DNA from: Cyanobacterium sp. Dongsha4
Lineage (GTDB): Bacteria; Cyanobacteriota; Cyanobacteriia; Cyanobacteriales; Cyanobacteriaceae
Reading direction: 5' to 3'
NCBI RefSeq assembly: GCF_036345015.1
Contig: NZ_CP084098.1
Coordinates: 2,059,326-2,123,325, forward strand
Length of the DNA stretch: 64,000 nt
Made by a program: the position numbers and the translations under genes. Shown here in pieces: positions 3,150 through 13,986 of this stretch. A model generated the notes under the pieces. It was not told where the DNA came from. It ran no database searches and saw only the letters and a program-made list of their open reading frames with translations. Position 1 is the stretch's first letter; each line of letters opens with the position of its first letter.

Positions 3150-4196
3150 TTAAAAGGGTCTTCTGCGTTCCTCAAATGTTTTAGACTTATCGTAGGGAAT
3201 GCCAATTTTATCGAGTAAAGGCTCAACAGGTACAACTTTTGCATTCATGCCACAATCTTTGAAAGGATCATAACCCAACATTAATCCCGTTAATTGGGCA
3301 TAATCGAGGATACTAACGTTAAATTCTTCCTCTAATACCTCTTTAATTGTGCCTTGTTCTGCATCTAAAAACACCGTACAACCGGGGCAGTTAGTGAGAA
3401 TTAAATTACAATCAGGATGAGCCTCTTTCAAACTAGCTAACTTTTTATAGGTGCTACTAGCGGTGTAGTCACGATTTTCAGGGAAAGCACATTGACGGAA
3501 ACCCATACCGCAACAGTGACGGCGTTCAGGATAATCCACAATTTCCGCCCCAAATGCCTCCAATAAACCCACTAAAACTTGAGGAAATTCTACTCCTCCC
3601 ATTGCCTCACCGGGGAAGATTTTACCGTAGTGACAACCGATGTGATCCACTGCTTTAATACCTTTAAGGCTATATTTAGCTTTTTCTGCCAACTTGTGAC
3701 GATTAGCATAAAACACATCGGACGCATGAACTACAGAAGGTCTGCCACCGGATACATGGGGTATCCAAAACTCTCTGCCAGTGGTTTCTTTTAAAGTTTT
3801 AGCTGTATATTCCCGTAATTCTGGTTCTTCTTCCCAAAGATGGATCATTTCGGTATAGTTAGCAAAGGAGGTGACACAGAAAGAGAAAAGGTTATCCACT
3901 CCTAACTCCTCATGGGCAACGGCAAAATTACGCGCCGCAACCACCATCTGAGTTTCAATATTAGTAACATCCCCATGATAGCCGATCGCACCGCAGGAAG
4001 TATGCCCCGCCGCTTCTCTTAAATCGATACCGAGATCATTTTTAAGGATTTTATAAGCGATACCTTCGGTGTAAGGGGCGGCACTTTGTAAAAAACAACT
4101 ACGGAAACATCCCCATAGCTTACCGCCTTCTTCGTCAATAGTCGGAACGTGCTTTTGGTGACTTTCCCAAATAATATTTTCTCTCGTTACTTTCAT
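3150..4196 (-). CDS. hdrB: Heterodisulfide-reductase-like subunit B with one degenerate CCG domain
   Basis: This 348-residue HdrB homologue keeps a full second CCG domain (C188, C228-C229, C270, C273). Its first domain is degenerate: the CCG box reads SCG around C68 and the CxxC box is reduced to a single C107. C30 and C34 remain near the N-terminus. It should therefore bind one canonical noncubane cluster and perhaps a modified second one. It follows hdrC by 79 bp of spacer containing a G-rich palindromic repeat and corresponds in order to hdrB1 of sHdr clusters. Annotation as an HdrB/GlpC/LutA-type CCG protein is secure; the reaction is not known. Confidence 0.83.
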   Translation of the reverse strand: MKVTRENIIWESHQKHVPTIDEEGGKLWGCFRSCFLQSAAPYTEGIAYKILKNDLGIDLREAAGHTSCGAIGYHGDVTNIETQMVVAARNFAVAHEELGVDNLFSFCVTSFANYTEMIHLWEEEPELREYTAKTLKETTGREFWIPHVSGGRPSVVHASDVFYANRHKLAEKAKYSLKGIKAVDHIGCHYGKIFPGEAMGGVEFPQVLVGLLEAFGAEIVDYPERRHCCGMGFRQCAFPENRDYTASSTYKKLASLKEAHPDCNLILTNCPGCTVFLDAEQGTIKEVLEEEFNVSILDYAQLTGLMLGYDPFKDCGMNAKVVPVEPLLDKIGIPYDKSKTFEERRRPF

Positions 4197-4234
4197 TTTT
4201 ATTTATCCTTTTGATGTTATTTACTTTTGTCCAA

Positions 4235-4277
4235 TTCCCCCCTTATTAAGGGGGGTTAGGGGGGATTTCGGGGATCT
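4235..4277. repeat. G/C-rich palindromic repeat touching the hdrC stop codon
   Basis: The CCCCTTATTAAGGGG palindrome and its GGGGGGAT-TTCGGGGATC tail fill the short spacer between hdrC1 and hdrB1. The terminal GATCTA of the element overlaps the TAG stop codon of hdrC (read on the minus strand), so the element directly abuts or supplies the end of the gene. Confidence 0.7.
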
Positions 4278-4977
4278 AACTTTTCATCTCATAAGTACGA
4301 CTATCGGCAGTTTCGAGCCAGTTTTCCCAGTATTTCTCAACTTCTTTTTTGCTACCGAGTTTTTTCTCCATGCCTTTCTCCACTGCCTCCATAAGTTCGA
4401 TCGCACCTGTAGCCTTATAGATAGCCCTTAACTCATCCATGTCTTTTTCAGGTATTACACGGTGAGAACCTGCACTGTTTTCCTTATCCATCGGCACATC
4501 CCACCATTCCCGCATTTCTTTCATATGCTCAAAATAGTATTCCCAATTCTCTCCCAACTCAGGAAAATGCTCAGGAGTAATATTTTCGGCGGTGAGAGTA
4601 TAACCCCGTTTCAACATATTTTCACCGAATACCCGTTTCGCAAATAACTGCTGTCGCCCTTTTTCTGACTCCGCAAAATAACCGTGACGCACGGAAAGAC
4701 GACGCAAAGCCAAAATCACATCGGCGGTACTATTACCTCTAGGACATCTCGGCTTACAAGAATAGCACTGTCCACAAAACCAGATTTTATCAGATTTGAG
4801 TAAATCAATCAGCCATTCCTCATCTTCAGTGTGGCAAATATTCATCACCTCTCTAGGGGAATACTCATAAACCTCCGCCGCAGGACATACCGCCGTACAG
4901 ATACCACAGTTTAAACAGGCATTCATACCGTGTTGATATTGAATATCCTGTTTTAACTCATCAACTAATTTGCCCAT
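4276..4977 (-). CDS. hdrC: Heterodisulfide-reductase-like subunit C, first gene of the hdr cluster
   Basis: From the ATG at 4977 the product has 233 residues and carries two [4Fe-4S] motifs, C21/24/27/31 and C68/71/74/78, each followed by Pro. The open frame continues 28 codons upstream, but that stretch is a run of Ile/Phe codons from AT-rich leader DNA, so the ATG giving MGKLVDELKQ is preferred. A long C-terminal helical part follows the cluster domain. It is the first gene of the hdrC-B-A-C-B series; a promoter should lie in the 555-bp AT-rich stretch upstream. Confidence 0.82.
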   Translation of the reverse strand: MGKLVDELKQDIQYQHGMNACLNCGICTAVCPAAEVYEYSPREVMNICHTEDEEWLIDLLKSDKIWFCGQCYSCKPRCPRGNSTADVILALRRLSVRHGYFAESEKGRQQLFAKRVFGENMLKRGYTLTAENITPEHFPELGENWEYYFEHMKEMREWWDVPMDKENSAGSHRVIPEKDMDELRAIYKATGAIELMEAVEKGMEKKLGSKKEVEKYWENWLETADSRTYEMKS

Positions 4978-5532
4978 AATGATAATGATAAAAATGATTG
5001 CAATAGAAAAAAAATATAAATAATTGCAACTATCAAAGAAGATAGCTTCAGATAATGCCATTGACTAAAAAAATAAGAATGATCAAGGACACAAAGCCTT
5101 ATTAATTCTTAGCTAAAGAAGACTAATTCTAAGAGTTTTGGATGAAGTATAAATATTTATAAAAACTCTCTCAGCAAAAATTAGTAACTTTACTTAAAAT
5201 ATGAATTAATTGTTACTTTTCTATATAACAATATAGTTATATAAAATGTCAATGGTTATTTATACTTATCTAATGCTGTATTCGTTAACCTGAGTTCAGG
5301 GTAAATTTTCATTTATGAGTGATGACGAAAAGGACACTCTTGTAATGATGTATAGGGCAAAAGGCAAAGGTAAATATTGAAAATTAAAATTTCTAACTCT
5401 TAGCTCTTAAGTCCGAATTCCGAACGAATCTCTGTCTAATACCCAAACACCTTAACACCTGCAACCTGACACCTGATACCCGACACCTTCAAATTAATTA
5501 TTAATTTTATGAATTTTGAGTAATGTCAATGA
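4978..5532. other. Intergenic region upstream of the hdr cluster, with composite repeat
   Basis: No convincing gene is seen. The half next to hdrC is very AT-rich and is the likely promoter region. Between about 5355 and 5490 there is a composite repeat: GGCAAAGGTAAATATT, then heptamer-like units, then ACACCTGATACC-type units. The same parts occur in inverted orientation at 8190-8300. Confidence 0.5.
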
Positions 5533-7014
5533 TTAAGGTAAATCAGTTGTTTGCATCAAGAAGCGATCGCACTCTCTAGCAACTTCTCTACCCTCATTAA
5601 AAGCCCAAACTACTAAACTTTGACCTCGACGACAATCGCCGGCGGCAAAAACTTTAGGAATATTAGTGGCATATTGACCATAATCAGCTTTAACATTACT
5701 ACGGGCATCAGACTCTAAACCCATTTTTTCCAACAGCATTTGTTCAGGTCCTAAAAAACCCATGGCTAATAGTACCAGTTGTGCAGGGATTCTTTTTTCT
5801 GTCCCTTCAATGGGTTGAGGAATAAAACGCCCTTGCTCATTTCTTTGCCATTCCACCTCAACAGTATGGACTGCGGCAACATTTCCTTGAGCATCTGCTT
5901 CAAATTTTGTGGCAGTGGTAGTATATACACGGGGATCATTACCAAATTTGGCGGCCGCTTCTTCTTGTCCATAGTCAAGACGGTAAATTTTAGGATATTC
6001 AGGCCAAGGATTATTTTTTGCTCTCACTTCAGGAGGTTTCGGCATAATTTCCAATTGAGTGACACTGTTACAACCATGACGAATTGAAGTACCTACACAA
6101 TCTGTGCCTGTATCTCCCCCTCCAATGATTACTACATCTTTGCCTTTTGCAGAAATAAGCTCTTCTTTATTGGTATTTAAGACGCTTTTAGTATTGGCGG
6201 TCAAAAATTCCATGGCGAAGTGAATTCCCCCTAAATCTCTTCCTTCTATGGGCAAATCACGGGGTTTTCCAGCACCGATGCAGAGAATTAAAGCGTCATT
6301 TTCTTCTAACAATTGCTCAGGAGATATATCTTTACCAATCTCTGTATTACATACAAACTTGATTCCTTCGGCCGCTAATACTTTAATCCGACGCAAAACA
6401 ACCTTTTCTTTATCCAACTTCATATTAGGAATACCATACATTAATAATCCACCGGGGCGATCATCTCTTTCATAGACCGTAACAGAATGACCTGCCTTGT
6501 TTAATTGAGCGGCGGCGGATAGTCCTGCAGGACCTGAACCGATAACGGCAACCTTTTTGCCTGTGCGAGTTTTAGGTGGTTCTGGTATGATCCAACCCAT
6601 ATCCCAACCATGATCAATAATCGAACATTCAATATTTTTGATGGTGACAGGAGGGTTATTTATTCCTAATACACATGAACCCTCACAAGGGGCAGGACAT
6701 ACTCTCCCAGTAAACTCAGGAAAATTGTTCGTTTTATGGAGGCGATCGAGCGCTTCTTTCCATAATCCACGATAAATCAAATCATTCCATTCAGGGATTA
6801 AATTATTGATGGGGCATCCTGTTGCCATACCATTAATTACTTCTCCTGTATGACAAAAAGGCGTTCCACAATCCATACATCTCGCCCCTTGATTGCGGAG
6901 TTTTTCTTCTGGTAAAGGTCGGTGAAATTCATCCCAATTATTAATTCTTTCTAAGGGATCTTTATCAACGGGTAATTCCCTCGCAAATTCTAAAAATCCT
7001 GTTGCTTTTCCCAT
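5533..7014 (-). CDS. gltD: Glutamate synthase small subunit (GltD)
   Basis: This 493-residue protein is the NAD(P)H-oxidising subunit of GOGAT, which passes electrons to the large subunit that makes glutamate from glutamine and 2-oxoglutarate. An N-terminal iron-sulfur region with C46, C49, C54, C67 and C106/110/114 precedes the FAD motif GSGPAG (159-164) and the NAD(P)H motif IGGGDTG (297-303). The length matches the family. No gltB is present in this window, so the partner is encoded elsewhere. GltD-like flavoproteins also serve as electron entry modules for other enzymes, so a link to the hdr genes downstream is possible but not shown. Confidence 0.92.
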
Positions 7015-7546
7015 ATTTTACCTATTGTTCTCTAAAAAATTTATCTATTTGTCTGAAAATATTTAATCAGGACTATCAATAATAAATAATGACTTTTTTA
7101 CTAATTCTGTTAGCTTAAAATAACATAAATAAAAAGAAAATGAATTTAATTAGCTAGAAAATGTTATTTATTTCTTGACATTATTAAGGATTAGTGATTT
7201 TATTTTCATGTAAATTTTGCTAACATCTAACCCATTTAATCTTTCCCGATTGATTCAGATAATATCTCTAAATTCAGTCTAGTGGAGTTATTTTCAATAA
7301 ACAACTATTTTAAAGATTAATTCATGTTTTTTTAATAATTCGTAATATAGATGAAAATAGTCTTTTTATCTTGATATTTTCTGACTTTAGCTTTTAGCAT
7401 ACTTCCCATAAAATTAGAGAATATTTTGTTACCAGTTGCGAAAAATTATGGCTCTCTACATCTCTTTACGAACTCCGAACTCACTTATATTATCCTCAGA
7501 GGGTTAAGTTCAAGATATAATTCACAAAAAATCACTAATCGGCAAA
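7015..7546. other. Divergent AT-rich intergenic region
   Basis: This spacer separates gltD (minus) from the GUN4 gene (plus) and must hold both promoters. It is AT-rich, without a clear ORF or strong hairpin; a short GAACTCCGAACTC heptamer pair lies at about 7468-7482. No GTA-N8-TAC NtcA box was found by eye. Confidence 0.4.
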
Positions 7547-8137
7547 ATGAATATTAAAGCTCTGATTTTCTCAGCTATTATCTCTTTTTCTTTTGTTTCT
7601 CTTCCCCATCAAAATTCCTTCGCTCAAAGTGGCTTGTCTGAAATTAATAGTAATCTGGTTTCCCCTGAAACGAAGATAGATTACAGCGACTTAGAAAATT
7701 ATTTAAAGAATAAAGAATGGCGTGAAGCCAACAATGAAACAAGAAATATCATTTTATCAGCAACGGGTAGAATGGATATTGGTTGGGTAAGAGAGGATGA
7801 TTTAAAAAAAATTCCTTGTTGGGACTTAAAAAAAATTGATGATTTATGGTACACCAATTCTAATGGTAGGTTTGGTTTTCGAGTACAGTTACCTATATAT
7901 ATAGAAACGGGAAATCGACCGGGTAAATTAATTGCCGACGATGCTTATAATCGTTTTGGGGATCGTGTTGGTTGGAGAAAAGATAATGATTGGATTATTT
8001 TTATTGAAAACTTAAACTTCACAGATAACGCTCCCATTGGACATTTACCGAATCCTCGCTCTGAATATTCCGTTACAGGGGGGCGACTTGCTTATTCAGT
8101 TTTAGCAGAAAGGATGGTGCAATGTAACCTTAATTAA
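7547..8137 (+). CDS. GUN4-domain protein with an N-terminal signal peptide
   Basis: The 196-residue product begins with a basic start and a hydrophobic stretch ending in SFAQS, a typical signal peptide (about residues 1-27). The rest matches the GUN4 core: a DYSDLENYLKNKEWREAN-type helix, a W-x-R-E-D-D-L-K-K-I-P-C-W-D-L segment, NGRFGF, and RFGDRVGW followed by NAPIGHLP. GUN4 binds protoporphyrin IX and Mg-protoporphyrin and activates Mg-chelatase in the cytoplasm. The helical N-terminal extension of canonical Gun4 is absent and export is predicted, so this is probably a paralogue acting in the periplasm or thylakoid lumen. Its function there is unknown. Confidence 0.8.
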   Translation: MNIKALIFSAIISFSFVSLPHQNSFAQSGLSEINSNLVSPETKIDYSDLENYLKNKEWREANNETRNIILSATGRMDIGWVREDDLKKIPCWDLKKIDDLWYTNSNGRFGFRVQLPIYIETGNRPGKLIADDAYNRFGDRVGWRKDNDWIIFIENLNFTDNAPIGHLPNPRSEYSVTGGRLAYSVLAERMVQCNLN

Positions 8138-8189
8138 CATCAGTTCGGGTTAAGAATATCTGATTTGCTTAGGTATCAAGGTTTTGAGA

Positions 8190-8300
8190 CTTGGGATATT
8201 AGGAGATTGGGGTATTAGGGAGAGATTAGTTCGGAGTTAAGAGTTAGGAGTTATTAACTATCAACTATTTACCTTTGCCCTTTTTGCCATTACTCAGAGA
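8190..8300. repeat. Composite intergenic repeat
   Basis: This spacer carries GGGGTATTAGGGAGA, then GTTCGGAGTTAAGAGTTAGG, then AACTATTTACCTTTGCCC. The reverse complement of the latter parts is found at 5355-5440, and the first part recurs at 28200-28250 and 29290-29335. Confidence 0.6.
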
Positions 8301-8411
8301 TAAAAATTTATCCCGAAATCAGGCATCATTGAATTTATTTTTTTTATTCGATATTTATAGTTAAAATCACAATAGACGCAATTATAAAACAACAAATATA
8401 TATGAATTTTT

Positions 8412-9830
8412 ATGAATAAAAAGACCTTTTTTCACCACAAAATGTTAACATCAATTTCTTTAATCACACTTCTAACATATGGATGTGGTAATAAAAATAG
8501 TTCTACACCTCAACCAAAAGCGATACCTGTTTCAACGACGGTTTTAAACTCTTCTACTCTTATTGATAGCACAGAATTTGTTGGTTCTTTAGAGGCAGTG
8601 GAAAGGGTTAATTTAGCTCCTAAAATTAACGGTAGAATTATGAATATCTTTGTGGAAGAAGGAGCAATAGTTAATCGAGGACAATTAATTGCGGAGTTAG
8701 AACCAGAGCAACAACAAGAAGATGTGAATGCGGCAACAGCTAATATTCAAGCTCAAGTTGCTTCTTATAACCAGTCGTTAGCAGAATTAAGACAAACTGA
8801 GGCTCAAAGGGATAGTAGTTCGGCGGATGTTGCTCGTTTAAAAGCATCTGTTAGTAGTGCCCAAGCTAATTTAAAAACGGCGGAGGCAAATCTCGAAAGT
8901 GCGATCGCAGATTTAGATTTAGCTCAGGTAAACTATGAAAGGTCTGTCTTTTTAGTTGAACAAGGAGTATTACCAGAACAAGATTTAGATGATAAAACCA
9001 GAGACTTAAATAGTACCAAGGCTAACGTAGAAGCGCAGAGAAAAACTGTTGATGCTTTTAAAAGTAACGTTTCATCTGCTCAAGAAGCATTAAAATCAGC
9101 TCAAAGTAACCTAGCGGCGGCTCAAGAAAGAGTAGAATCAGCAAAAGCTAATGTTGCTCGTTCTCAGGCAAATATTGAAGAAGCTCAGAGCAATCGGGGA
9201 AGTATTGAACAAAATCTTGCTTTTACAAGACTGATTGCTCCTATTGATGGTACGGTAGGAGATTTTCAGGAGTTTAAACTCGGAGATTTCCTTAATGTAG
9301 GACAAACGCTGACAACCATTACTAACAATAGAAGATTCCATCTTAATTTGAATATCCCCACAGAGAATATTGATAATCTCCGTTTAGGACTTCCTGTCGA
9401 AATTATTAATGCTGATGGTAGTGTTGGAGTTAAGGGAGCAGTAACTTATATTGCACCTTTAGTTAATCAGGATAATCAGTCTATAAATATTAAAATTACT
9501 TTTGAAAATGATGGTACTCTCAAAGACCAACAGTATGTACGAACTCGCTTAATTTGGGATACAAAACCCGGTATCTTAGTTCCCACTAATGTTGTCACCA
9601 GTTTGGGAGGTCAAAAATTTGTTTTTGTTGCTCGTGAGGGACAATCTAAGGATGATAAAACAACGATGATGGCTCACCAAGTACCAATTCAAGTACAAGG
9701 TATTCAAGGGCAAGATTATCAGGTTACATCGGGTATTCAAGAGGGCGATCGCATCATCACGAATCGTATCCTAGACCTACGAGATAAAACTCCTATTAGC
9801 CTTCAAGAAGTCACCAGCCAAGTAAATTAA
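8412..9830 (+). CDS. Efflux periplasmic adaptor (HlyD/RND-MFP family) lipoprotein
   Basis: The 472-residue protein starts with a lipoprotein signal ending in the lipobox LTYGC (C25). A biotinyl-lipoyl-like half motif (GRIMNIFVEEGAIVNRGQ) leads into a long Ala/Gln-rich coiled coil at roughly residues 90-265. The second lipoyl half (FTRLIAPIDGTVGDF) and the beta-barrel domain follow. Such adaptors link an inner-membrane RND pump to an outer-membrane channel. No pump or TolC-like gene is adjacent, so the partner is elsewhere. The coiled coil contains several near-repeat segments of the type SAQxNLxxAxxxxxSA. Confidence 0.85.
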   Translation: MNKKTFFHHKMLTSISLITLLTYGCGNKNSSTPQPKAIPVSTTVLNSSTLIDSTEFVGSLEAVERVNLAPKINGRIMNIFVEEGAIVNRGQLIAELEPEQQQEDVNAATANIQAQVASYNQSLAELRQTEAQRDSSSADVARLKASVSSAQANLKTAEANLESAIADLDLAQVNYERSVFLVEQGVLPEQDLDDKTRDLNSTKANVEAQRKTVDAFKSNVSSAQEALKSAQSNLAAAQERVESAKANVARSQANIEEAQSNRGSIEQNLAFTRLIAPIDGTVGDFQEFKLGDFLNVGQTLTTITNNRRFHLNLNIPTENIDNLRLGLPVEIINADGSVGVKGAVTYIAPLVNQDNQSINIKITFENDGTLKDQQYVRTRLIWDTKPGILVPTNVVTSLGGQKFVFVAREGQSKDDKTTMMAHQVPIQVQGIQGQDYQVTSGIQEGDRIITNRILDLRDKTPISLQEVTSQVN

Positions 9831-11757: not shown

Positions 11758-13986
11758 GTGATTAGTCAAAAACAGTTGCAATCTTTTTTCTGGCAATGGC
11801 GTGGCGTTTGGGTTGCAACTCCTCTTATCTGTACTGCCATTATTCTCGCCCGTTACTTGGGTTTTTTTCAACCCTTGGAATTGTTTGCTTATGATTTATT
11901 AATCAAAATGCGTACCCCATTACCTCAAGATGACAGGATAGCAATTGTGGGGATTGGAGAGGAGGATGTAGAAAAAATAGGTAGTGCCATAATATCTGAC
12001 GAAATTTACGCTAATGTAATCCAAAATCTGCTTAAACAACAACCTATCGCCATTGGTTTAGATATTTATCGGGATGTTCCAATTCCCCCAGGTACAAATA
12101 AACTAAGTCAGTTGTTTCGGGAAAATCAAAATATTGTCGGTATTGAGAAAATGGTGGGAGATACGCGTCAATATCGAGTTAAGCCTAATCCGATTCTCAA
12201 GGAAAAAAAACAGATTGGTTTTAATGATGTCATTTTAGATCCAGATAACAAAATTAGACGGGCATTATTAGCGTTACCAGATAAACAGGCTTTTAGTCTT
12301 TCCATGTATTTAGCTTTACTTTTTTTACAGAAAGAAAATATTAACTTGACTACTGTGGGGGAAAAAAATTACTGGCAATTAGGTAATACGGTATTTATTC
12401 CTTTTGAAAAAAATGACGGTAGTTACGCTCAAGCAGATAGTGGCGGTTATCAGATTTTACTTAATTATCGAGATAATGTGAATCATTTTGACACTGTTAG
12501 TTTACTTGATGTTTTGGAAAATCGCATTCCTACCGATTGGGGTAAAAACAAGATTATTCTGATCGGTTTTGTGGGAGAGAGTTTTCAGGATGTTCATTTA
12601 ACTCCTTATACTAACTCTCCAGATCAAAGAATGCCCGGGGTGGAAATTCATGGTCATATTATTAGCCAGATAATAGATAGTGCCAAGGGAAATCAAGATA
12701 GTCGCACTTTAATCAAGACATGGAGTGAAACTAAAGAAAATTTATGGATTATTTTTTGGACATTACTAGGTGCGATCGTAACATGGAATTTGCGTAAATC
12801 TAGTAATTTTCGTCAAGGAATCATTATTTTTGTGGGTATAGAGTTTATTTTAGTGGCTATTGTTTATTTTGCTTTTCTTGCTAACTGGTGGATACCTCTT
12901 TTACCTCCTTTAACAGGATTAATTGCTGTGGCAGGGGGAATAACTATCTATACCGCCAGAAATGCCTCTAAAATACGTTTTACTTTTGGGCGTTATTTAA
13001 GTACTGAAATTGTCAATACATTACTCGAAAGTCCTCAAGGAGTGAAGTTGGGGGGAGAAAGACGCAATATAACAATTCTTACTTCTGATTTAAGAGGATT
13101 TACGGCAGTTAGTGAACAATTACCCCCCGAAGAAGTGGTTAAAATTCTTAATTTCTATCTTGGTTATATGGCAAATATAATCAGTGAATATCAGGGGACA
13201 ATTGATGAATTTATGGGGGATGGTATTTTAGTTTTATTTGGTGCTCCTATCAGTCGAAATGATGATGCAGATAGAGCTATAGCTTGTGCGATCGCAATGC
13301 AATTAGCAATGAAAGAAATTAATCAACAAATTGAAATATGGGGTTATTCACCTCTCAAAATGGGAATTGGTATCAATACAGGTGAAGTAGTTGTCGGTAA
13401 TATTGGCTCAGAAAAAAGAACTAAATATGGAATTGTTGGCAGTGAAGTAAATTTAACCTATCGCATCGAATCTTATACTAAAGGTAGAGAAATTTTAATC
13501 TCAGAAAAAACCCTACACAGCCTTAAAACCGATGTACAGATAGCAGAAACGAGAGAAGTATCCCCAAAAGGAGTAAAAAAACCGATCACTATTTATAAAA
13601 TTATCAGTATCAAAGGTAAATACTCTCTTTTCTTACCTGAAATAGAAGAAAAAATAATTGACATTAATGAGGAAATAAAAATCAAATATTCTCCTCTCAA
13701 TGAAAAAGATATTACAGAAGATATTTATCAAGGAAAAATAGCCAAAATTATTATTAAAGATATTGAAATAGGAGCAATAATTCAAGCTGATTATAAGGAA
13801 AATTTTTTACCTAATCCATTAGATAATTTGAAACTCAACTTCACCAATTGGGCTTATCCAGATGATTTTTATGGCAAGGTAGTCATGAACCATAGAGAAG
13901 ATAGTTCTTTCAAAATTTATTTTACCTATTTACCACCTCAAATAGAGCAAAAATTATCTAATTTACGGCTATCTGTCATGGATTAA
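11758..13986 (+). CDS. CHASE2-domain adenylate/guanylate cyclase
   Basis: This 742-residue sensor begins with GTG. It has a first membrane helix (about 18-36), an extracytoplasmic CHASE2 sensor domain (about 40-310), three further membrane helices (about 325-400) and a class III cyclase domain (about 425-610). The metal-binding aspartates are D444 (SDLRGF) and D488 (FMGDGI), the usual 44 residues apart. It should make cAMP or cGMP in response to an external signal. About 120 residues follow the cyclase domain; they are rich in beta-strand-like segments and could be a PilZ-like domain, but this is uncertain. Confidence 0.87.
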   Translation: MISQKQLQSFFWQWRGVWVATPLICTAIILARYLGFFQPLELFAYDLLIKMRTPLPQDDRIAIVGIGEEDVEKIGSAIISDEIYANVIQNLLKQQPIAIGLDIYRDVPIPPGTNKLSQLFRENQNIVGIEKMVGDTRQYRVKPNPILKEKKQIGFNDVILDPDNKIRRALLALPDKQAFSLSMYLALLFLQKENINLTTVGEKNYWQLGNTVFIPFEKNDGSYAQADSGGYQILLNYRDNVNHFDTVSLLDVLENRIPTDWGKNKIILIGFVGESFQDVHLTPYTNSPDQRMPGVEIHGHIISQIIDSAKGNQDSRTLIKTWSETKENLWIIFWTLLGAIVTWNLRKSSNFRQGIIIFVGIEFILVAIVYFAFLANWWIPLLPPLTGLIAVAGGITIYTARNASKIRFTFGRYLSTEIVNTLLESPQGVKLGGERRNITILTSDLRGFTAVSEQLPPEEVVKILNFYLGYMANIISEYQGTIDEFMGDGILVLFGAPISRNDDADRAIACAIAMQLAMKEINQQIEIWGYSPLKMGIGINTGEVVVGNIGSEKRTKYGIVGSEVNLTYRIESYTKGREILISEKTLHSLKTDVQIAETREVSPKGVKKPITIYKIISIKGKYSLFLPEIEEKIIDINEEIKIKYSPLNEKDITEDIYQGKIAKIIIKDIEIGAIIQADYKENFLPNPLDNLKLNFTNWAYPDDFYGKVVMNHREDSSFKIYFTYLPPQIEQKLSNLRLSVMD

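Follow-up and report, generated by a model that had tools for sequence, protein, structure and literature searches.

The window analysed here is a 64,000-nucleotide stretch of Cyanobacterium sp. Dongsha4 contig NZ_CP084098.1. On its plus strand, positions 7547–8137 hold a gene that starts with ATG, includes a TAA stop and encodes a protein of 196 residues, in which a GUN4 domain follows a predicted export signal. The founder of the GUN4 family aids chlorophyll production, which canonical GUN4 supports in the cytoplasm. Pfam places the domain (PF05419) at residues 41–169 (7667–8053, plus strand; E 2.3e-35), with a score of 122.2 bits compared with a curated cut-off of 29.2; no NCBIfam model matched the protein at 0.001. 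In an AlphaFold model with a mean pLDDT of 81.7 (below 50 for residues 1–33, block values mostly 84–97 across residues 41–170), the GUN4 fold extends beyond the Pfam limits to residue 196. Comparison of this model with the pdb and pdb_via structure libraries gave 4xkb as best match (Z 21.8, rmsd 1.6 over 147 residues). All 14 Foldseek matches at E≤0.001 were Gun4 entries of the PDB, and the five PDB sequence matches were likewise all Gun4 proteins; the entries 1z3x and 1z3y bear “putative cytidylyltransferase” as molecule name, yet are titled Gun4 in the structure search. The model lies nearest to ligand-bound Gun4 (4xkb, 4xkc, 7e2t), a proximity that may merely reflect AlphaFold training. Start codon, length, Pfam match and the Gun4-only structure matches thus bear out the GUN4-domain reading frame named in the original prediction. 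The closest named relatives come from Geminocystis sp. GBBB08 (63% identity) and a cyanobacterial MAG (59%). The source genome encodes four GUN4 proteins, the exported one included; the others are a canonical GUN4 of 227 residues with the bilin motif (L001), a Ser/Thr kinase with a GUN4 domain (L002) and a short GUN4 protein of 189 residues with a coiled-coil-like N-terminus (L003). Scans of positions 7000–8500 returned six promoter-like sites, compared with 8.1 in shuffled sequence, and zero terminator-like sites.

A Sec/SPI signal peptide is predicted for residues 1–26 (7547–7624, plus strand), where MNIKA, LIFSAIISFSFV and SLPHQNSFA make up the n/h/c form, with the cut before QS. Lipoprotein export and Tat export were ruled out for the window protein, which has neither a lipobox nor a twin Arg, and script flags for both were empty in all orthologue rows listed. 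N-termini of all 54 orthologues were taken from the DNA. In 52 of the 53 orthologues parsed by script, an ATG, a hydrophobic stretch and then a cut site with small residues were found, the commonest site being A|Q (34/52). The N-terminus left unparsed (G161) and that of G278 were read by hand (NSAFA|Q and DRVFA|Q, respectively), and in G350 we favour a cut site other than the one picked by the script. Script and hand reading together identify an export signal in 54/54 orthologues, with small residues at −3 and −1 recurring within the n/h/c form, although Lys and Arg are scarce in the n-regions of three of them (G186, G195 and G251). In comparison with a species of the same genus (96% identical), codons 1–26 differ by two synonymous changes and no nonsynonymous one, numbers too small for a test of selection. 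The best 12-residue hydropathy ahead of the domain has a median of 2.4 in the exported set (range 1.69–3.12, 53 parsed) compared with at most 1.75 in a control of 17 canonical GUN4 proteins, the lower ends of both sets overlapping. Lumenal Sec signals are described as the more hydrophobic ones in the available part of PMC12341915. The signal peptide that had been predicted ahead of the GUN4 domain therefore recurs in every orthologue, and the export deduced from it is supported; judged from sequence, the window protein is very probably exported. That it should instead be cytoplasmic, its hydrophobic stretch resulting from a mis-called start, is highly improbable: start codons between signal peptide and domain occur in 18/54 orthologues (ATG in five), and these species may make a shorter cytoplasmic form, but none of these starts is conserved, the ATG, stretch and cut site persist in orthologues down to about 37–40% identity, and canonical GUN4 reaches lower hydropathy values despite the overlap.

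The orthologue set was obtained by searching a profile of 13 orthologues against 388 genomes sampled from the order. Among the matches listed, 54 genomes carry an orthologue, and the 54 single-domain matches run from 346 down to 226 bits, with the next match at 171. Orthologues are present in nine of 15 genomes sampled from the organism's own family, in 42/50 genomes of a second family and in three more genomes of two other families; in a sample of the class, 18/388 genomes have one among the matches listed. Both genome sets are samples of larger groups, and within the genomes searched the exported gene is confined to cyanobacteria. It is missing in G309, G270 and G339 (another genus) and in G292, G324 and G347 (g122), and since eight of the 50 genomes of the family in which it is commonest lack it, the gene is dispensable. 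No match to the exported protein was found in 50,697 phage records; 36 plasmid records matched, each with a best place below 60% identity, the ten listed lying at 33–40%. A tree was built from 106 of 114 GUN4-domain rows after removal of near copies, with its bootstrap still unsettled. In this tree, 47 exported rows form one group (support 94/93) apart from canonical GUN4, whose 17 rows form a group of their own (91/82), and the backbone among the GUN4 paralogues is weakly supported. Synechocystis Sll1380 is probably an orthologue, because the exported gene lies beside a divergent pyrB in two genomes whose canonical GUN4 resembles 1y6i (G049 and G021), sll1380 lies near pyrB (slr1476), and its CyanoBase annotation is that of a periplasmic protein of unknown function. 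Sll1380 is the Synechocystis GUN4 paralogue treated by Rockwell and Lagarias in 2023 (PMC10156173); the available text of that paper reports that loss of sll1380 gives no gun4 phenotype, mentions no signal peptide for Sll1380 and contains no occurrence of “periplasm”.

The strongest result is a separation of the exported gene from chlorophyll synthesis. In four reduced genomes the gene has stayed intact, namely in the spheroid bodies of Epithemia turgida (G186; 2,794,318 bp) and Rhopalodia gibberula (G195; 3,020,309 bp) (PMC5638926, Table 1), and in G229 and G251, which fit other spheroid bodies in size alone (compare the accessible part of PMC12903740). Intact PsaA/PsaB genes and intact heme oxygenase genes were found in none of the four, and in G186 neither search gave any match at all. 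All chlorophyll genes of the E. turgida spheroid body are called dysfunctional in the available text of PMC5638926. Its exported gene is without internal stops; its canonical GUN4 is a remnant with five stops in the main piece and pieces in different frames, and its ChlH/CobN family (PF02514) is represented by two pieces with stops only. The reverse case is provided by two small genomes, G274 (1,443,806 bp, the length of UCYN-A) and G286 (1,491,611 bp): the exported gene is absent, whereas a single GUN4 of canonical type and two PF02514 genes of full length are present in each genome.

Changes private to the E. turgida spheroid body point to purifying selection on its exported gene, with 14 synonymous compared with six nonsynonymous changes (neutral binomial p 9e-6), although some of these may predate the loss of chlorophyll genes on that branch. 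In the comparison with the R. gibberula spheroid body, dN/dS is 0.09 (NG86) or 0.12 (YN00). Private changes of G229 number 11 synonymous and nine nonsynonymous (p 0.0017). A general claim that the exported gene is more constrained than canonical GUN4 was rejected: it holds only in the pair G195–G229 (0.14–0.15 for the exported gene versus 0.33–0.53 for canonical GUN4), whereas the pair G195–G251 gives 0.22–0.29 versus 0.14–0.16, and deep pairs have similar values for both genes. Sequence and evolution together establish selection on the exported gene beside remnants of canonical GUN4 and ChlH, as they do the fold, the signal peptide and the altered ligand residues described below. As purifying selection maintains an intact gene where canonical GUN4 and ChlH/CobN are remnants, its function is very likely independent of Mg-chelatase, in keeping with the earlier expectation that the protein is no cytoplasmic Mg-chelatase helper. 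A role with Mg-chelatase was rejected on both counts, G186 keeping the exported gene beside mere remnants of GUN4 and ChlH, and G274 and G286 doing the reverse. In a separate observation, the other three reduced genomes (G195, G229 and G251) keep intact canonical GUN4 and ChlH/CobN-family genes despite having no intact photosystem I genes; the retained chlorophyll pathway of spheroid bodies is discussed as a puzzle in the available parts of PMC12903740 and PMC5638926.

A contribution to the synthesis or assembly of chlorophyll or phycobiliproteins from the lumenal side would extend what canonical GUN4 does in the cytoplasm and would suit a family confined to cyanobacteria within the genomes searched. 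Such a role is nonetheless very improbable: four genomes in which neither PsaA/PsaB nor heme oxygenase is intact retain the gene, G186 among them, which also lacks intact GUN4 and ChlH/CobN, and two small genomes that have retained GUN4 and ChlH-family genes have lost it. Provided that sll1380 is this gene, its loss without a gun4 phenotype, as stated in the available text of PMC10156173, argues in the same direction.

The neighbourhood of the gene offers another candidate role. The next gene downstream (8412–9830, plus strand) encodes an RND-type efflux periplasmic adaptor of the HlyD family (TIGR01730), and such an adaptor is the next same-strand gene downstream in 33/54 orthologue regions, at a distance of 46–343 bp, with an RND pump gene following in five. 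The exported protein might accordingly be part of an RND-type efflux system, for example passing a pigment or a toxic ligand to the pump. Yet pyrB, identified via Pfam in 36/54 regions and the divergent next gene in 34, adjoins just as often, which suggests an inherited gene order. Twenty of the 54 regions have no adaptor, G063 with its short upstream flank among them, and in G350 the adaptor stands at another place within the region. Of the four spheroid-body genomes, three have the adaptor gene in fragments and in one it was not found, yet all four have an intact exported GUN4 gene. Because the adaptor is broken or missing there and the exported gene is not, we regard the gene order as mostly inherited. 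A standing efflux partnership was rejected, adjacency being frequent but broken where the exported gene itself is kept, and a place in the efflux system is improbable. Elsewhere in the window, a minus-strand cluster upstream (3150–7014) encodes a CCG-domain protein, a 4Fe-4S protein that by eye resembles heterodisulfide reductase, and a pyridine-nucleotide oxidoreductase that contains a Fer4_20 domain and is similar to the glutamate synthase small subunit. A 742-residue protein encoded at 11758–13986 (plus strand) looks by eye CHASE2-like with an adenylate-cyclase part. In the genome G005, a second short GUN4 gene (L064; at most 173 residues, without an evident signal peptide) sits about 1.4 kb upstream of the exported gene.

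Three ligand residues that have published mutants and could be aligned were compared across 114 GUN4 domains, comprising 54 exported, 17 canonical and 43 other paralogue rows. With canonical GUN4 (Ycf53-like; Synechocystis Sll0558; PDB 1y6i, 4xkb, 7e2t) the exported protein shares its fold (Z 20–22) and the columns Trp80, Trp101, Gln114, Trp143, Trp149, Pro163, His166 and Pro168. It differs in its signal peptide, a cysteine pair and loop insertions, in having neither the LxNxLR bilin motif nor the aligned Phe196 and Arg214, in missing the N-terminal helical domain (the model range starts at residue 36) and in being independent of ChlH in one lineage. Leu156 (8012–8014, plus strand) occupies the column of Synechocystis Phe196, a porphyrin residue according to the available text of PMC8967248; the exported set has Leu in 52/54 rows, Ile in one and Phe in one. 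Arg171 (8057–8059, plus strand) stands at Asn211 of the LxNxLR bilin motif, as delimited in the accessible part of PMC10156173, with Arg in 53/54 rows and Tyr in one. The column of Arg214, another porphyrin residue, is taken by Gly178 (8078–8080, plus strand) and by Gly in 54/54 rows, this column being uncertain near a short insertion. Canonical rows keep Asn211, Arg214 and Phe196 in 17/17, and the column of Synechocystis Trp192 is still aromatic in the exported set (Phe in 53/54). Two arginines, Arg171 (53/54) and Arg180 (50/54), are conserved and could take over the role of Arg214, as far as the alignment indicates. Conserved loops specific to the exported family are TGNxPG (121–126), PR.EY (170–174) and GGRL (178–181).

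These replacements bear unequally on the two pigments that the original prediction had suggested as ligands. According to the available part of PMC10156173, bilin binding requires Asn211 of LxNxLR (Asn219 in Chlamydomonas), and no member of the GUN4 paralogue clade keeps this Asn. With Arg or Tyr in its place, and with the gene persisting in four genomes that have no intact heme oxygenase gene, a bilin role was rejected and this half of the prediction finds no support. Porphyrins present a mixed picture. The Chlamydomonas GUN4 variant N219G is reported to retain porphyrin binding in the same text (PMC10156173), whereas the Arabidopsis substitutions F191A and R211A/E, at the equivalents of Synechocystis Phe196 and Arg214, reduce the affinity for porphyrin by a factor of about 2 to 12 (PMC8967248, as far as available). 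The “well-kept GUN4 core” of the prediction thus stands for the fold and fails across the 54 orthologues for the ligand residues compared, those for porphyrin included. As all three of these residues differ, porphyrin affinity may be low or nil. Their loss is nevertheless compatible with porphyrin or heme as ligand, since the fold persists and porphyrin binding survives when the Asn alone is lost.

Two cysteines distinguish the exported proteins from canonical GUN4. Cys91 (7817–7819, plus strand), at the start of helix 91–104, and Cys193 (8123–8125, plus strand), just past the last helix (179–192), are each present in 54/54 orthologues, and the pair occurs in 54/54 exported versus 0/17 canonical rows. 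The two probably form a disulfide. Among the 43 other paralogue rows, 29 have both cysteines, six have one alone and eight have neither, a co-occurrence with a Fisher p of 1.5e-4 when descent is ignored. An origin of the pair as an adaptation to export was rejected, as paralogues that have no signal peptide often contain it too; its presence there indicates that it predates export or serves another purpose in those proteins. L003 of the source genome resembles the exported protein in its single GUN4 domain and its cysteine pair, but has a coiled-coil N-terminus instead of a signal peptide and falls into a separate tree group. GUN4 domains fused to Ser/Thr kinases, caspases, TIR and other domains (PMC7159879, PMC1262709) contain the same domain, and most have the cysteine pair and no LxNxLR, like the exported set; unlike it, they are multi-domain and mostly cytoplasmic. 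They have been proposed as intracellular tetrapyrrole sensors (PMC7159879, in its available part). Two fused proteins carry transmembrane segments. L021 (genome G050) is a Ser/Thr kinase with a transmembrane helix (1279–1371) between kinase and GUN4 domain, so that the latter may be an outside-facing sensor and a second form of extracytoplasmic GUN4, as read from its sequence. L107 (Cyanothece PCC 8801, G174; minus strand, frame of 380 residues) combines a domain that is TIR-like by eye, a transmembrane segment (1876–1953) and a GUN4 domain; contig G174:C3, at 4,679,413 bp, is that of Cyanothece PCC 8801 (PMC5638926, Table 1).

We propose that a GUN4-fold paralogue is made with a Sec signal peptide, would then cross the plasma or thylakoid membrane, would be cut near residue 26, and would act as a mature protein in either the periplasm or the thylakoid lumen, with no need of Mg-chelatase, chlorophyll or bilins. 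The GUN4 cavity would keep its fold with a changed lining, and the Cys91–Cys193 disulfide would staple the region of the first core helix to the point where the last helix ends. The likeliest ligand would be heme or protoporphyrin, a tetrapyrrole that even the most reduced relative would still make, and the protein would hold it in the cell envelope as its scavenger or carrier. Spheroid bodies probably still make heme, because their HemH proteins, those of EtSB included, are spoken of in the available text of PMC12903740. Actual export, the disulfide and any ligand are what we infer in this scheme. We would place tetrapyrrole binding close to an even chance, slightly on the unfavourable side, and the account as a whole, combining an exported, Mg-chelatase-independent GUN4 fold with a re-lined cavity, a disulfide and the handling of heme or protoporphyrin, is tentative and falls somewhat short of even.

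The same exported, Mg-chelatase-independent paralogue could also have turned its cavity to a ligand other than a tetrapyrrole, to another protein or to the cell wall, the fold serving as a scaffold. The replacement of the three compared ligand residues in most or all of the 54 orthologues speaks for such a change, as do the family-specific loops and the persistence of the gene without bilins or Mg-porphyrins. On the other hand, the fold matches ligand-bound Gun4 at an rmsd of 1.6, and the newly conserved Arg171 and Arg180 could replace Arg214. A re-purposed cavity or protein-binding scaffold is therefore a serious contender, nearly as likely as the heme/porphyrin account.

GUN4 is usually treated as a regulator of the chlorophyll pathway, and its paralogues mostly as intracellular sensors. 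First descriptions of GUN4 paralogues are already in print; in the open-licence literature we found no paper on an exported GUN4, nor any description of the clade itself, of its cysteine pair or of selection on it in non-photosynthetic endosymbionts. The farthest-reaching form of the preferred heme/porphyrin account, in which this secreted, probably disulfide-stapled clade would be a heme or porphyrin chaperone or scavenger in the envelope or the thylakoid lumen of cyanobacteria, would have no part at all in chlorophyll synthesis and would outlive photosynthesis in diatom endosymbionts, is rather unlikely on present evidence. The clade raises the question of what job the GUN4 fold has across the membrane, and whether heme is held there. 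The E. turgida spheroid body, set against the two genomes of 1.4–1.5 Mb, provides a natural experiment for telling GUN4 functions apart, and the clade cautions that an annotation as “GUN4” need not mean a chlorophyll or bilin protein.
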